A stretch of 53,830 nt of DNA from Parcubacteria group bacterium RIFCSPLOWO2_01_FULL_48_18. GTDB taxonomy: Bacteria; Patescibacteriota; Minisyncoccia; UBA6257; WO2-01-48-18. The notes under the pieces were generated by a model. The model was not told where the DNA came from and searched no databases. It saw nothing but the letters and a program-made list of their open reading frames with translations. Both the position numbers and the translations under genes were made by a program. The stretch spans positions 2,840-56,669 of the forward strand of contig MHXH01000004.1 of assembly GCA_001824435.1 (NCBI GenBank), written 5' to 3'. Positions 17,387 to 52,567 of the stretch are shown piece by piece; the stretch's first letter is position 1; each line of letters opens with the position of its first letter.

Positions 17387-17826
17387 TTCGCGCTGCGCAA
17401 TAACTTTTTCGCCTTCGGGTACGTAAGCCGCTTGAGCGCTTGCCGATACGGCAACCATTGATAATCATTGTGTTCTCGAGAAAGTTTTACGCTCTTCGTG
17501 TAGGTTTGCGCGGCAAAAAACGTCACCATTTTAAATATCCATGCCGTTTTTTGCTTTTTTTCTTTTCTTCCTTTCTCTCCCCTTCGATGGTCGCGAAAAA
17601 AATACCGCGTACTCATTTTAAACCCCGGGAGAATCCGGATTTTTTTGATGCCGGTTTCTTCCCGCACTTCACGGCGAACGGTTTTATGCAGGGTTTCTCC
17701 CGGCTCAATATGGCCTTTGGGCAAATCCCAATGCCCCGCATCATAGTGAAGCAAAAGATACTCAACTTGATTTATGCCGCGGCGCTGGTAAAAAATAACC
17801 GCGCCGGCAGAAAATTCTTGAGGCAC
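17362..17826 (-). CDS. Nudix hydrolase (Ap4A/NTP pyrophosphatase-like)
   Basis: 154 residues with a complete Nudix box (GHIEPGETLHKTVRREVREE plus TGI; residues G-x5-E-x7-RE-x2-EE-x-G). The box is flanked by AGAVIFYQ at the N-terminus and WDLPKGH before it, the pattern of bis(5'-nucleosyl)-tetraphosphatase and dGTP-type Nudix enzymes. It hydrolyses nucleoside diphosphates linked to another moiety; the substrate is unknown. The last codons (SFLESRI) lie in a TAGAATTT-type repeat. Confidence 0.9.
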   Translation of the reverse strand: MPQEFSAGAVIFYQRRGINQVEYLLLHYDAGHWDLPKGHIEPGETLHKTVRREVREETGIKKIRILPGFKMSTRYFFRDHRRGEKGRKEKKQKTAWIFKMVTFFAAQTYTKSVKLSREHNDYQWLPYRQALKRLTYPKAKKLLRSANSFLESRI

Positions 17827-17925
17827 AATTTTAGAATTTGGAATCTAGAATTTGGAAAAAGCGCATAATCTCTCTAACGAGAAAACAAACCCCCAAATTC
17901 TAAATTCTAGATTCCAGATTCTTAA
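17827..17925. repeat. TAGAATTT-type repeat pair
   Basis: Two copies of the AT-rich repeat face each other (ATTTTAGAATTTGGAATC and AATTCTAAATTCTAGATTCC), so they can fold into a loose hairpin. They fill the gap between the Nudix and DUF1003 genes. Confidence 0.65.
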
Positions 17926-20313: not shown

Positions 20314-21189
20314 TTATGCTGGTTTGTTTGCGGTGAAAATGCAGTAACGGATTAAACCCTTTTTAGCCATTTTATAATACTCGTGACTTGCAGCTATGTT
20401 TGGGAAAAGTCTCTGAGCATTAAAAAATCTAACAATGAAGTAAAGGGGGGCTAGGATGCGGTGGAGGCGAGCGAGAGAAGGGGCCATGTGGCTAGAAATA
20501 TTTTGTTCCCGGATACCTGTAAACCCAATTTTCCCAAGAAATTCGGGAAAAGTATCATGACGAAATTGTTTTAAGCTCATCATCGCCGCTCCCTCAATAA
20601 TCGCATCCAGCATTTTCTTTTCATATTCGTCAAATTGACCATCCTGCGCGATCGTATATTCAAAAAGGGCAACCCGCCCATTTGGTTTTAATATTCTCAT
20701 AAACTCTTTTAGCGTTTTCTCGAGATCTGCGGCATGCGAAAGAGATTCGGTGGTATAGACGGCATCGAATGTCTCATTTTCAAAATCTGTATCAGAATAG
20801 TCCATAAGCCGATATTGAACCTTGTCCTCAACGCTCTCCCTTTTAGCCAGTATTTTCGCTTTTGCAACTTGGAACGGAATGATATTGATACCAACAATCC
20901 GGCAGTTATATTTTTTTGCAAGATGGGCGGAAACAACTCCTTGGCCACAGCCCGCATCCAATATATAGTCGTCTTTTTTGATCTTCAGGTTTTCCGCTAC
21001 CAGTTCATTGAATAAATACTGAGCCTTTTTTTCGGTAATATCAGTGCTTTCTGTGGGGTAGTAACCAAAATGCATTGCCCCTCCAAGTAGATACGTATAG
21101 CAGAAACGGGATTCGAGAGAAGAAAAATATTGAACAACCTTGCGAGACCCTTCGTCTGATAAAATTTTTTCGATTTCGTTGTTTTTCAA
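20314..21189 (-). CDS. SAM-dependent methyltransferase (class I)
   Basis: 291 residues with the Rossmann SAM-binding motif I (ILDAGCGQGVVSAHLAKKY), an acidic post-I region and motif IV (FDAVYTTESLSHA), then ILKPNGRVALFEY. The overall layout (long N-terminal helical part, GGAMHFGYYP) resembles the cyclopropane-fatty-acid/tocopherol/sterol C-methyltransferase group, so a lipid or small hydrophobic substrate is plausible. The start is TTG at 21187-21189; no ATG is available nearby. Its start region is back-to-back with the promoter of the downstream RNA gene on the other strand. Confidence 0.82.
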   Translation of the reverse strand: MKNNEIEKILSDEGSRKVVQYFSSLESRFCYTYLLGGAMHFGYYPTESTDITEKKAQYLFNELVAENLKIKKDDYILDAGCGQGVVSAHLAKKYNCRIVGINIIPFQVAKAKILAKRESVEDKVQYRLMDYSDTDFENETFDAVYTTESLSHAADLEKTLKEFMRILKPNGRVALFEYTIAQDGQFDEYEKKMLDAIIEGAAMMSLKQFRHDTFPEFLGKIGFTGIREQNISSHMAPSLARLHRILAPLYFIVRFFNAQRLFPNIAASHEYYKMAKKGLIRYCIFTANKPA

Positions 21190-21193
21190 TCCC

Positions 21194-21221
21194 TTGACTT
21201 TTTAAACGTATATGCTATAAT
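21194..21221 (+). promoter_or_regulatory. Promoter of the structured RNA
   Basis: TTGACT (21194-21199) and TATAAT (21216-21221) with a 16-base spacer, pointing right. No coding sequence follows on this strand; the start site is expected near 21228. Confidence 0.75.
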
Positions 21222-21227
21222 AGAAAC

Positions 21228-21401
21228 AATTCCGAACCGGTTACGCTAGAGTATCCGCAGCGGAAGGTGCCTCAGTCGGTACGGAGCAGCTTACGTTAGT
21301 GGCTTGCGCTGTGACGTATGGATTCTCCGACGAAGACCCACTGAGGAAATGCAAGCGCTATGGGGGCGCGGGGAACAACTATCCGCGCCTTCTTAATTTT
21401 T
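21228..21401 (+). ncRNA. Structured small RNA of unknown family (6S-like layout possible)
   Basis: About 174 nt between a good promoter and an intrinsic terminator, with no protein-coding sense. The body folds as one long irregular hairpin: CCGCAGCG pairs with CGCTATGG, CCTCAGT with ACTGAGG, CGGAG with CTCCG and TACGT with ACGTA, separated by internal loops. The length and rod shape with internal bulges resemble 6S RNA, which sequesters RNA polymerase, but a large central bubble is not obvious. The fragment UCAG...AGCAGC recalls SRP RNA domain IV, but the pairing around it does not fit. The family stays open. Confidence 0.6.
21365..21401 (+). terminator. Intrinsic terminator of the structured RNA
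   Basis: GGCGCGG (21365-21371) pairs with CCGCGCC (21383-21389), followed by TTCTTAATTTTT. Confidence 0.85.
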
Positions 21402-21430
21402 ACTCAACAACCTTCGTCCTATTTTTCTTC

Positions 21431-23992
21431 TTACGCCGCCTCTTTCGTAAATACAAAGTCCCCGTTTGCAAATGACAATCGCACGCGTTCTCCCCGCTTC
21501 ACTTCTCCCTGAAGTAGGGCATTGGCCAACTTGCTCTTGAGCCGATCGGAAATCACGCCGCGCAAGGGGCGGGCGCCGAACACCGGATCATACCCGAGCC
21601 TGGCAAGTTCGCGGATGGTTTCTTGGTCGGTTAACAATTTAATGCCGTGCGTTTCATCTAAAATTTCTGCCAATCCCTTCAATTGAAACGCGGCAATTTG
21701 CTCAATATGCTCGAGCGAAAGAGTACGAAATACGATAATGCCGCTGAAGCGGTTCAACAACTCGGGCCTGAAAAACGACGAAAGCATTTTTTTGAGATCC
21801 TGTGCAATGTCCTTCGCGGATCTCCCGCGCTCTGTTTCCGCCTTCACGAAATCCGAATGAGCGTTCGACGTAGCAATCAAGATGGTATTGGTGAAGTCAA
21901 TAACATTTCCCATTCCGTCAGTCAGGCGGCCGTCGTCAAATACCTGCAAGAACAGATTGAAAATGTCCGGATGCGCTTTCTCAAATTCATCGAGAAGAAC
22001 CAGGCTAAACGGTTTGAGCCGCACCGCCTCCGTAAGCTGTCCGGGGACTTCTCCGTCCGAAGAACCGGTAAATCTCGTAAGGCTTTGTTTCTCTTGAAAC
22101 TCCGACATGTCAAACCTGATCATGGCGCTCTCGGAACCGAATTGAATTTGGGCTAAAATCTTGGAAAGTTCGGTTTTTCCCACGCCGGTCGGACCCACAA
22201 ACAAGAACGCCGCAATCGGCCCGCCTCTTCTCGAAAGGCCGCTTCGATATTCCCGAAGCGCTTGAGAAACTGCCGTCACCGCTTCATCTTGATTGATCAT
22301 GCGGGCATGGATGACCTCTTCCAGGTTCAGCAATTGTTGCGCCTCCTCTTTGGTGGCCCTGTGGATTGGCACGCGCACCTTTCGTTCGGTAATGGCGATA
22401 ACTTCGTCTTCCCGTAATACCTTCAACCCTTTTTCCTTTGCGTCGGCAAGAGCTTCTTTTAGTAAATCTTCCGCGCTCGACGGCAAAAGTTTTTCCCGCA
22501 GATACCGCTGTGCCAAAGCCACCGCCTTCTTAACGGCCTTATAACTGACGAGAATTTTGTAATACCGCTCTAATATAATTGCGCTGTAGACCAAAAGGCG
22601 GGTTGCTTCTTCTTCGCTGATTTCTTCCACGCGAATAACCTCGAGCGCATTGGCGAAATCGGCGTTCGGCTCGATGATTCTTTTGTAATCCCTCGGGTCA
22701 GAAGCGCCGATCGTCTGAAACGTTCCTTTCGAAATATACGGCAGCAAGACGTCTGCCGCGCTTAGAAATTCCGTTCCGGAAGTCCGCAGCAAATTGTGAA
22801 TATCGGGGATGTACAAAATCACGTTGCCCGCGGCAAGAATTTCATCGATGATCTTTTTCATTCGCGATTGCAGTTCGCTTGGTTCGGCTCCTGCAACGAG
22901 ATTTCCTATGGAAAGTTCTACAAGCCTTTTGTCAAATAGCGTAGCGGGTACGTGGTCGCGGATGATGAGAAATGCGAGGTGTGCCACAATGGTTTCTCTG
23001 CCGCTCCCCGGTTCTCCTACCAGCATCCCGCTGCTCTTGAGCGGCCGGGATAGCACGTCAACAAGGCGCTCCAACTCGGTTTTGTGTCCCACCATGAAAC
23101 CGACCTGTTCAGTTCTGGCGAGCGCCGTCAGATCTGTGCTGTACCGATCCAGGGTTTTCGTCGGTCGCGCGGTCCATGCCCGGTTCATGGTCCGCGACCG
23201 CATACGCACATGGCGATGGGCGAATCCGCCTAAGGTTGCAGGAAGGGCCCTCAAGCCGGAAAACATTTTCTTGTACTTTCCAAAAATAAGCGAATTCTCA
23301 AGGTCAACTTCTTCGATTTCGAAAAACCCGAAGATGCGTGCAAGGTCTTCTGATTTCACATGAAACAGGGCGCTGAATACATCATGAGGCTCAACCCATG
23401 CATCATTATTATTTACCGCATCAACGAAGGCGAATTTCATAAATTCATTTATCTCGAGCAGCAATTCAACTTTCCCTCGGGGAGGAACTTCCCGGCTCTT
23501 GTCCAGATGCTCTAATGCTTTTTTGTAGAATTCTTTCGGGTCAACATCCATTCGCATAAGTCCCCCCTTGATTTCCTGCAACCCACAGAGTTGTACGAGC
23601 AGGTTCAAGAAGAAGCTTTTTTGAGAAAGCCGGGTTTTGTCGATGCTTGCGATCAGCGTTTGGAATGAAGCAAGCGGCAGGAAATCTGCGATATTAATCC
23701 GCGTCCCTTTTTTGATTTCTTCCCGAACTTTGTGGTTGATCACTTTCTTGGCATTTTGACGATGCATCGTGAAATCAACCAGAAAAAACATGAGGAAGAT
23801 TCCCGCATACACAAGGCCCGGGCGCTCGGCATCTGAAAAAAGAAACGCGATGGTGGTTATCAACGCGGAAAAAAATAGAATCGATCCGACTGCTCGCACC
23901 AAAAAACGCCCGCCGACGGTCATCTCAAACCGCGGATCATATATATATAGTTGTTCGGGGTTAATTTGCATGTTTTGTAACCAAAATTTCAT
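21431..23992 (-). CDS. Membrane-anchored ClpC/ClpB-like AAA+ ATPase
   Basis: 853 residues from ATG 23992 (MKFWLQNMQINP), chosen because longer in-frame starts overlap the upstream membrane gene. Two membrane segments lie near residues 33-70, so unlike cytosolic ClpC the protein is tethered. A divergent Clp N-type region follows, then AAA+ module D1 and a complete D2. D2 has Walker A GPTGVGKTE, Walker B LVLLDEFEKA and the C-terminal Clp domain (YDPVFGARPLRGVI). In D1 the Walker A reads GEPGSGRET (Lys replaced by Arg) and Walker B reads ILYIPDIHNLL (the catalytic DE is PD), so D1 probably binds but does not hydrolyse ATP. Likely an unfoldase at the membrane. No ClpP is in the window. Confidence 0.9.
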   Translation of the reverse strand: MKFWLQNMQINPEQLYIYDPRFEMTVGGRFLVRAVGSILFFSALITTIAFLFSDAERPGLVYAGIFLMFFLVDFTMHRQNAKKVINHKVREEIKKGTRINIADFLPLASFQTLIASIDKTRLSQKSFFLNLLVQLCGLQEIKGGLMRMDVDPKEFYKKALEHLDKSREVPPRGKVELLLEINEFMKFAFVDAVNNNDAWVEPHDVFSALFHVKSEDLARIFGFFEIEEVDLENSLIFGKYKKMFSGLRALPATLGGFAHRHVRMRSRTMNRAWTARPTKTLDRYSTDLTALARTEQVGFMVGHKTELERLVDVLSRPLKSSGMLVGEPGSGRETIVAHLAFLIIRDHVPATLFDKRLVELSIGNLVAGAEPSELQSRMKKIIDEILAAGNVILYIPDIHNLLRTSGTEFLSAADVLLPYISKGTFQTIGASDPRDYKRIIEPNADFANALEVIRVEEISEEEATRLLVYSAIILERYYKILVSYKAVKKAVALAQRYLREKLLPSSAEDLLKEALADAKEKGLKVLREDEVIAITERKVRVPIHRATKEEAQQLLNLEEVIHARMINQDEAVTAVSQALREYRSGLSRRGGPIAAFLFVGPTGVGKTELSKILAQIQFGSESAMIRFDMSEFQEKQSLTRFTGSSDGEVPGQLTEAVRLKPFSLVLLDEFEKAHPDIFNLFLQVFDDGRLTDGMGNVIDFTNTILIATSNAHSDFVKAETERGRSAKDIAQDLKKMLSSFFRPELLNRFSGIIVFRTLSLEHIEQIAAFQLKGLAEILDETHGIKLLTDQETIRELARLGYDPVFGARPLRGVISDRLKSKLANALLQGEVKRGERVRLSFANGDFVFTKEAA

Positions 23993-24024
23993 CGCCGTTG
24001 GCTCGAATTCTTGGGTCAAGACCC

Positions 24025-24369
24025 TTAACCGGCGAGAGTACGGAACAGCAAAAACAGCGGAATCAAAGCCCACACGATATACGCGAAGATAAAACCCGCT
24101 ATCACGCACAAATAAATCAAGCCGCCGACGAGCAGCCGGGCCGGCCGAAATACAATGCCCAGTATCCTTCCTACAATGCTGTAATCCTGATAGAGCGGTT
24201 CGAACAAATTGCGCAGGGTTACCTTGATTGCAAACGTTTGATCAAGGCGTTCAAGCGCTGACAATGCCCGGTGCATAAACCAGCCGAATCCGCCGACATA
24301 CCAATGCATGAAAAAAGCGCCGATATAAAAAAACAGTTGCGAAATAATATAAAGAGGGGAGAAAGACAT
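24025..24369 (-). CDS. Small membrane protein, partner of the ClpC-like ATPase
   Basis: 114 residues, with hydrophobic segments at about 8-30 and 75-112 and a conserved-looking amphipathic middle (HRALSALERLDQTFAIKVTLRNLFEPLYQDYS). No known family is recognised. It ends 32 bases before the ATPase start on the same strand, so the two are probably co-expressed and may form a membrane complex. Confidence 0.7.
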   Translation of the reverse strand: MSFSPLYIISQLFFYIGAFFMHWYVGGFGWFMHRALSALERLDQTFAIKVTLRNLFEPLYQDYSIVGRILGIVFRPARLLVGGLIYLCVIAGFIFAYIVWALIPLFLLFRTLAG

Positions 24370-28971: not shown

Positions 28972-29095
28972 AAGATTTCCTATTTCTAATTCTAATTTCC
29001 AATTTCCAAACAAGTTCAAAATCTCAATAATAAAATCGGTTTATTGGGATTTGGGATTTAATTGGGAATTGGATATTGGGTATTGGGATTTTAGT
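28972..29095. repeat. AATTCTAATTTCC / GGGATTTGGGATT repeats between rpsO and the NYN gene
   Basis: About 120 bases of AT-rich repeats: TTCTAATTCTAATTTCC on the left and GGGATTTGGGATTTAATTGGG on the right, roughly complementary to each other. They leave no room for a promoter of standard type next to the NYN start. Confidence 0.6.
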
Positions 29096-29097
29096 TA

Positions 29098-29646
29098 ATG
29101 TCTGTTATCAAACACAAAGATCAGCGAGTCGGTGTCTTTATCGACATCCAAAATCTATACCACTCGGCGAAAAATCTCTATCAGTCGCGCGTCAATTTCA
29201 AAGAACTTTTGAAAGAAGCGGTCGGCTCGCGCCAGCTGATCCGCGCCATCGCGTACGTGGTGAAAAGCGAGGGCGTGGTTGCAGAATCTTCTCAGGGGGA
29301 AGCTTCTTTTTTTGAGGCGCTCGAGCGCGCCGGCATTGAGTTGAGAATGAAGGACCTGCAAGTGTATTCCGGAGGATTTAAAAAAGCCGATTGGGACGTC
29401 GGACTGTGCGTGGACGCGATACGGATGTCAGAGTTTCTCGACGCCATTGTGCTCGTTACCGGAGACGGTGACTTCGTGCCGCTCGTGGAATATCTTCGAA
29501 GCCACGGGAGACAGGTAGAAGTTATGGCGTTCGGCAGAAGCGCGTCGTCGAAGCTCAAGGAGGTCGTCGACCTATTTACTGATTTAGGAGAAGGATCAAG
29601 GTTTCTCATTAAAATTGCCCTACGGAGAATATCGCATAGACATTAA
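29098..29646 (+). CDS. NYN-domain (LabA/PIN-like) putative RNase
   Basis: 182 residues. The NYN fold is shown by VGVFIDIQNLYH at the N-terminus (first Asp), KADWDVGLCVDAI in the middle, and VLVTGDGDFVPLVEYL with three acidic residues near the end of the core, followed by EVMAFG and SSKLKEVVDLF. These form the metal site of PIN-like nucleases of the LabA/DUF88 group. It may act in RNA turnover, consistent with pnp starting 12 bases after its stop. ATG at 29098 is used, without a clear SD. Confidence 0.87.
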   Translation: MSVIKHKDQRVGVFIDIQNLYHSAKNLYQSRVNFKELLKEAVGSRQLIRAIAYVVKSEGVVAESSQGEASFFEALERAGIELRMKDLQVYSGGFKKADWDVGLCVDAIRMSEFLDAIVLVTGDGDFVPLVEYLRSHGRQVEVMAFGRSASSKLKEVVDLFTDLGEGSRFLIKIALRRISHRH

Positions 29647-33824: not shown

Positions 33825-33903
33825 TGGTGCTGTATTCTGAAATTAGTCCGAACCCATTTTGGCGGGCGGGCGAGCTCTGAAAAAAATCCGAAGCCGTTGG
33901 GAT
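33825..33903. repeat. Cassette C, left terminal inverted repeat (79 bp)
   Basis: Identical, base for base, to the complement of 34850-34928. It starts with TGGTGCTG at the outer edge and ends ...GCCGTTGGGAT inside. The two copies bound a 1104-bp cassette. Confidence 0.93.
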
Positions 33904-33922
33904 GACAATTTCAAGTTTTTCT

Positions 33923-33987
33923 AATGAGTTAATAATAACTCATTTCAAAGCATTTTTCAATTTGAAATTGATTGAAAAATGCTTTGA
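33923..33987. repeat. Two adjacent strong hairpins inside cassette C
   Basis: AATGAGTTA/TAACTCATT (33923-33944) and a perfect 16-bp stem TCAAAGCATTTTTCAA with its complement (33945-33987, 11-base loop) directly follow the left repeat. They could block read-through or form folded single-stranded ends. Confidence 0.6.
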
Positions 33988-34023
33988 TTGGCGGCAAATT
34001 CTTTTAGCTCTTTGAATTAATAA

Positions 34024-51621: not shown

Positions 51622-52422
51622 GTGGGCGTAACGCGGATTCTCGCGCTTGTCGGAGAAAAAGGGTCGGGCAAGGGTGAATTTGTAACATATGCCGCAGAAA
51701 CGTTTTTTAAAGCCGAAGAGCCCCTTGCGGTTACATGGAAAAGAACCACGCGGAACATCCCAAGAGAAATCTGTCGAATCCTTTATGTTCGCGAGGAGCC
51801 CGAGTTTCTTCAAAAACTGCCCCTGGGATTACAGATAGTGTTTGACTTTGTGCCGCCACTAAAAGTTTTTGATAGGAAATCGGACATACAAGAAGTTTCT
51901 TGGGAAGATGCCATTGCCAGACAACAGTGGCCCGCAAAGCGGTTGGCGCACATTCGATTTTCCGATCCTCTGCGCGAAATCACCGACCTGATGGGAATGC
52001 CGCACGATACGCGGTATCTCCAACGCTTGCCGCAGATGCTGCAAATAATTTTCGGGTCGAATGTGCTCTCGCGTGCGGTAGTGAGCCGAGCCCGGGATTG
52101 TCGCGCGGACAAGGTGATTCTCGACGGCGTGCGCTGGCCGCATGACGAAACTGCCGTACGATTCCTAAGGGATTCGCAGTTGATTTATATTACTGCTAAA
52201 ATGGAAATTCGCTACGCGCGCAGAAAGAATCGTGGCGAGAATGTCGAAGAGCATGACATGCCATTTGAAGAATTTCTCCGTCAAGAACAAGAACAGTCCG
52301 AAGTATACATTCCTTTCATTGGATCGAGGGTCGACGGCAAAAACCGCATTGACAACAATGGCGCCTTGGAAGAGTTTTATAAAGAAGCTCGCCGCGTGCT
52401 TGAGGCGAGCTGCCGAGAATAA
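51622..52422 (+). CDS. P-loop kinase-like protein (dNMP/dephospho-CoA kinase fold)
   Basis: 266 residues from GTG 51622 (CCGGAGG before it), preferred to an unsupported GTG at 51538. Walker A is GEKGSGKGEF at about residue 10. The middle part has IRFSDPLREITDLMGMP and VVSRARDCRADKVILDGVRW, with the DGVRWPHDE pattern resembling the Asp-Gly-Arg motif of deoxynucleoside-monophosphate kinases. A lid-like Arg-rich segment (IRYARRKNRGENVEEHD) follows. Likely a nucleotide kinase; substrate open. Confidence 0.75.
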   Translation: MGVTRILALVGEKGSGKGEFVTYAAETFFKAEEPLAVTWKRTTRNIPREICRILYVREEPEFLQKLPLGLQIVFDFVPPLKVFDRKSDIQEVSWEDAIARQQWPAKRLAHIRFSDPLREITDLMGMPHDTRYLQRLPQMLQIIFGSNVLSRAVVSRARDCRADKVILDGVRWPHDETAVRFLRDSQLIYITAKMEIRYARRKNRGENVEEHDMPFEEFLRQEQEQSEVYIPFIGSRVDGKNRIDNNGALEEFYKEARRVLEASCRE

Positions 52423-52446
52423 CCCTTTACGCGGGTTATTTTTTTA
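52421..52446 (+). terminator. Terminator of the kinase-like gene
   Basis: AACCC and GGGTT pair, followed by ATTTTTTTATC; overlaps the stop codon. Confidence 0.8.
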
Positions 52447-52460
52447 TCTTCGTATTATGT

Positions 52461-52498
52461 TATGACACAAATTATGCTATAGCATTTTTTGTGTCATA
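52461..52498. terminator. Inverted repeat between the kinase-like gene and parB
   Basis: TATGACACAAA and TTTGTGTCATA form an 11-bp stem around a palindromic ATGCTATAGCAT. It lies between convergent genes and probably ends the parB transcript. Confidence 0.5.
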
Positions 52499-52567
52499 GA
52501 TTTGGATGAGCTTATGGATGGGTTTTGGGGTACGTTTTGAGTTTGGGGACAAGTTTTGGGCGGACGA

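Follow-up and report, generated by a model that had tools for sequence, protein, structure and literature searches.

Cis-antisense small RNAs encoded opposite the intercistronic regions of operons are a known kind of RNA. The locus described here, at 21194-21401 of the window (the whole 53.8-kb stretch of DNA that was analysed), resembles them in placing a promoter and a terminator opposite a run of same-strand genes and in being fully complementary to any read-through mRNA; it differs in overlapping the spacer alone, with no coding region, and is a candidate defined by its sequence features. Two housekeeping RNAs also invite comparison. Like 6S RNA (RF00013; ssrS), the unit is standalone, ~170 nt long and partly rod-shaped with its own promoter and terminator, but it lacks the closing stem, the central bubble and the GGGAG...CACCCACC core. 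With bacterial small SRP RNA (RF00169) it would share its small size and a hairpin rod, but the unit has no covariance-model match, and 39 genomes yielded neither an Ffh M domain nor an SRP RNA over the cut-off. Should it be transcribed, the locus would add a small RNA to an uncultured clade of small genomes; no such report for that clade was found in the open-licence literature.

The plus strand carries an extended sigma-70-type promoter at 21194-21221 (TTGACT-16-TATAAT, with TG before the -10) that matches the consensus at 11 of 12 positions. In the whole window 17 promoter-like sites match at 10 or more of the 12 positions, and only 2 have both 11/12 and the TG. An intrinsic-terminator-like feature follows on the same strand at 21362-21401, consisting of a GC-rich hairpin with a 9-nt loop and a T-rich tail; the terminator-type hairpin proper spans 21362-21392 (-18.4 kcal/mol) and is followed by TTAATTTTT. 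A standard terminator scan of 20800-21800 reported none, which we attribute to its maximum loop length of 8 nt, against 9 nt here. The small transcription unit claimed in the initial annotation is therefore present as sequence features, namely a near-consensus extended promoter and a terminator in the same direction. The candidate transcript would be ~170 nt long (21228-21401, plus strand), with its start placed 7 nt past the -10 hexamer and its end at the T-rich tail, and the two signals together suggest that this interval is transcribed. Both strands of the window were then scanned for promoters of at least 10/12 with a terminator-like hairpin of -10 kcal/mol or lower 60-350 nt downstream. 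Such pairings occurred at four promoters, and 21194-21401 was the sole one to combine 11/12, the TG and a hairpin at or below -14 kcal/mol.

The unit sits in a 241-bp gap within a run of minus-strand genes and points the opposite way; the other gaps in the run, as read from the ORF lists, measure 7 to 118 bp. The order of the run is Clp ATPase, methyltransferase, PolX, DUF1003 and NUDIX. Its upstream member, a ClpB/ClpA-type AAA+ ATPase gene (21431-24109, minus strand), has its end facing the unit, and the class I SAM-dependent methyltransferase gene (20314-21189, minus strand) runs divergently, at a distance of 4 bp from the -35 of the unit. On the minus strand, nothing in 21151-21480 resembles a promoter at more than 8/12 positions, and a promoter scan with a standard tool listed no minus-strand promoter in the gap region. 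Since the minus strand lacks a good promoter, the genes downstream of the Clp ATPase gene probably depend on read-through. When read on the minus strand, the terminator hairpin has no T-run.

A scan of the genome collection with the Clp ATPase protein returned a single near relative, a Wolfebacteria locus (L066) with a homologous Clp ATPase gene (51% identity). There, another gene, membrane transporter-like when read by eye, lies within 5 bp of the Clp ATPase gene and is followed by PolX and then a NUDIX-like gene; the RNA is absent. Because the Clp ATPase/PolX/NUDIX-like order is the same, the run is common to both genomes and the RNA-bearing gap looks like an addition. Judged by gene order, the RNA and the methyltransferase gene fill a variable slot in the run. 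Within the order, the nearest homologue of the methyltransferase is that of G119 (56% identity), and no similar RNA adjoins its gene.

The reading that we favour, tentatively, is a lineage-restricted, standalone small RNA in antisense orientation whose target is the junction of the Clp ATPase and methyltransferase genes. A strong promoter and a terminator, both belonging to the unit, would set the two ends of the RNA. It would pair perfectly with the read-through mRNA of the junction, or interfere with transcription of the junction, and the outcome would be that expression of the Clp ATPase is uncoupled from that of the genes behind it. This scheme assumes that transcription of the Clp ATPase gene reads through, and we infer the effect of the RNA. 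In its favour are the strongest promoter-terminator pairing in the window, with the two signals 170 nt apart, the unusual width of the gap, and an ORF list that holds no ORF of at least 60 aa inside the unit. Against it are the lack of a homologue, the G119 locus without the RNA, and a fold that is not significant once the terminator is removed. A more specific version, in which a new clade-restricted antisense RNA has arisen in the gap of one lineage and uncouples a chaperone-type ATPase, in an order that appears to be without SRP, we regard as unlikely.

Next after the antisense small RNA comes its main rival, that the unit is non-functional or transient: a promoter and a hairpin would have met in an inserted or decaying spacer, and the RNA, if made, would have no selected role. 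We consider this somewhat unlikely, although chance alone could bring a promoter and a terminator together in a spacer. The distribution of the unit, one genome with no homologue, speaks for this reading. A nucleotide search of 61 genomes (60 relatives, all of the same order) gave short matches only, most of them on the promoter or the terminator. Searched against 244 genomes of the order, the transcript body found itself and one 19-nt perfect match in G161, which was rejected as chance; the ORF that contains it looks, on inspection, like ribosomal protein L25/Ctc. The single-sequence covariance model R3 matched only itself in the 244 genomes and none of the 243 others, although a model built from one sequence and run with strict filters could miss distant homologues. 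The conserved structured RNA with paired homologues that had been envisaged thus finds no support among these 243 genomes, there being no homologue and hence no covariation. In 12 related loci (53.6 kb) the sole match had an E-value of 4.9. As a yardstick, single-sequence nhmmer queries were run against the fetched loci, a small database already enriched in 6S loci: the genome's own 6S alone recovered the 6S of its relatives (18 rows with E-values up to 10, the best at 2.9e-5), and the window RNA gave 3 rows (best E 1.6) and nothing notable. The lineage restriction is seen against relatives of the same order, a comparison in which a family-restricted RNA and a one-genome novelty look alike; as it stands, the unit is a single-genome candidate.

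Two further identities were considered and rejected. A mobile RNA is contradicted by the lack of a second copy in the genome and of any match among plasmids or phages, and a CsrA sponge by GGA motifs that, on inspection by eye, are not enriched.

The predicted fold also bears on the non-functional reading. In both the minimum-energy and the centroid fold, the transcript forms three separate hairpins: a 5' hairpin (21230-21265, plus strand, 36 nt; 11 pairs with symmetric internal loops), a rod hairpin closed by the inverted repeat CCTCAGT/ACTGAGG (21270-21346, plus strand, 77 nt) and the terminator. Taken alone, the 5' hairpin has a z of -3.1 over 21228-21266 and the rod a z of -2.5 over 21267-21350, in each case with boundaries picked post hoc. 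The whole transcript folds at -64.5 kcal/mol (z -2.2), with 6 of 400 shuffles as good; minus the terminator, z falls to -1.3 and 44 of 400 shuffles are as good, which is not significant, so the fold signal derives largely from the terminator. Of the long rod-like fold described at the outset, the 77-nt rod hairpin is found, but it is one of three hairpins, and without the terminator the transcript folds no better than shuffles. Predictions from one single sequence cannot prove more structure here than the terminator. The linker from rod to terminator (21347-21361, plus strand) is predicted to be single-stranded in the centroid fold and is a possible pairing (seed) region.

In a coarse tiling of the window by 140-nt folding tiles, the locus was absent from the 15 best of 384. 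The four best tiles (28981-29120, 33881-34020, 17781-17920 and 52361-52500; z -5.4 to -6.2 against shuffles) are long hairpins at gene ends or in intergenic sequence, and those at 28981 and 17781 are built from short AT-rich words; all four may be terminators or small inverted-repeat elements.

The non-functional reading is further helped by the variability of the flanking slot, which in L066 holds another gene where the methyltransferase gene lies here. It is opposed by the promoter and terminator being the best pairing in 53.8 kb on both strands, and by the intact 11/12 extended promoter, which would be unlikely to persist neutrally, though this is seen in one genome. The orphan unit is probably either a lineage-specific regulator or a chance product.

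It is quite improbable that the locus is instead the remnant of a small protein gene, or an unrecognised one, in the plus-strand frame 21224-21472. This frame is open for 83 codons across the unit, and its codon score of 0.042 is ambiguous: 5% of true frames score below -0.046 and 95% of wrong frames below 0.071, and it falls between these limits. However, the frame has no ATG, GTG or TTG in its first 25 codons (to ~21299), it continues through the terminator to overlap the Clp ATPase gene in antisense, and it has no match in Pfam, PHROGs or NCBIfam.

Nor do we give much weight to a minus-strand element, a structured leader of the methyltransferase mRNA. The rod lies directly upstream of the methyltransferase gene and folds equally well on the opposite strand (z -2.7), as such a leader would. 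Yet no Rfam riboswitch was found on either strand, the minus-strand promoter reaches at most 8/12, the promoter and the terminator both face the other direction, and the 56%-identical homologue in G119 lacks the element.

A diverged second 6S (like 6S-2), or another housekeeping RNA beyond the sight of the models, could be imagined from the length of ~170 nt, the dedicated promoter and terminator and the bad fit of the Rfam 6S model to this clade, but is very improbable given clade-specific 6S models (R1 and R2, described below) that are blank at 21228-21401 with filters off, a genome whose 6S lies elsewhere, SRP RNA and Ffh not found in 39 genomes of the order, an RNase P RNA on another contig, no tmRNA in the window (ARAGORN), and a fold with neither closing stem nor central bubble.

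At an E-value threshold of 10 with permissive filters, Rfam assigned no family to the unit, the sole listed match, to a snoRNA model, falling far short of the cut-off; the description of the RNA as belonging to no assigned family is in keeping with this. RF00169 at E 10 had no match in the genome, and none in the window. An SRP RNA identity, raised by that blank, was rejected: Ffh went undetected too, and the loss is published. Across 39 genomes RF00169 gave three matches at E ≤ 10 and none over the cut-off; two of the three were inspected and are not SRP-like, one of them lying inside a Clp ATPase gene. The Ffh M domain (PF02978) was found in none of the 39 genomes and in 14 of 14 controls. 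Nelson and Stegen (2015; PMC4508563) report ffh and ffs as missing from Parcubacteria genomes, and a second paper (PMC8080830) gives two SRP subunits as absent in many CPR bacteria. The negative result for both components in 39 of 39 genomes agrees with the former paper, and with ffh and ffs recorded there as lost, a hidden SRP RNA is an unlikely identity for the unit. In a further paper (PMC8321541), "6S RNA" means SRP RNA, and it has no bearing on the 6S question.

RF00010 had no match at the unit. The RNase P RNA of the genome lies at G000:C25:67032-67819 (L165; RF00010, 126 bits), where the match is 788 bp long for a model of 367 positions, which suggests a large insertion in the gene.

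The initial annotation had likened the unit to 6S RNA in length and shape. RF00013 has no match there, and the 5' and 3' ends of the transcript are unpaired with each other, with no closing stem; the missing large central bubble noted at the same time is indeed missing from the predicted folds. A 6S identity was first suggested by a weak RF00013 match in a relative from the order (G049), whose promoter and 5' end are similar; the likeness to the window consists of TATAATARAAACARTTCCG plus ACCCAC close to the 3' end. This reading was dropped once the clade models scored the window at nothing and placed a clear 6S at another locus of the genome; the shared 5' letters are mostly promoter. With filters off over 20900-21700, R1 and R2 had no match to 21228-21401, their stray best scores (8.1 and 7.7 bits) falling at other coordinates. 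The likeness to 6S thus fails, with clade-specific models scoring nothing at the unit and the genome's own 6S on another contig; by any test made, the unit does not appear to be 6S RNA.

The clade models also describe the 6S RNA of the order. RF00013 had a match at E ≤ 1 in 1 of 101 order genomes, with none of the 101 over the cut-off, and matches in 13 of 383 class genomes, one over the cut-off. R1 was built from 10 sequences out of the 13 RF00013 loci, the weak L033, L034 and L035 having been dropped. Its alignment is clearly that of 6S, with GGGAG and CACCCAC invariant. At E ≤ 0.1 it has matches in 173 of the 244 genomes of the order, a count that includes the order member G049, itself part of R1, and does not include the genome of the window. 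The suspicion that this phylum is poorly served by covariance models holds for 6S on these counts, 0 of 101 for RF00013 over the cut-off against 173 of 244 for the clade model. R2 (39 sequences, with the genome of the window left out) has matches at E ≤ 0.01 in 15 of 21 genomes; both models contain order sequences, and their E-values are rough. The 39-sequence alignment shows strong covariation: of its 1333 cells, 92.9% can pair, and 396 are changed on both sides against a shuffle mean of 116, a count favoured by the fitting of the alignment to the structure.

R2 places the genome's own 6S at G000:C17:21921-22053 (L158 1501-1633; minus strand, 36.8 bits, E 9.9e-5). This locus carries the GGATCAA and AGGCC...CCAC features and the gene immediately upstream of it reads as ndk; of 54 6S-model loci examined, 25 have an ndk-type motif in their fetched flanks, this one included (24 of the 53 others). 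The 6S loci of the order (L021, L024-L032, L036-L065, L146-L157 and L158) have a conserved GGGAG...CACCCACC core. Going by these models, 6S RNA is widespread across the order, which is Patescibacteria-like, yet nearly invisible to RF00013. No report of 6S in Patescibacteria, Parcubacteria or the candidate phyla radiation was found in the open-licence literature, and this by-product outweighs the unit itself in importance, since the clade model sees 173 of 244 genomes and Rfam almost none. Weak R2 matches were also seen at G013:C3:29013-29156 (L159) and G015:C2:87289-87409 (L160). L159 has the ATTCCGGATCAA word without the usual CACCCACC core, and both loci are possibly strongly diverged 6S RNAs.
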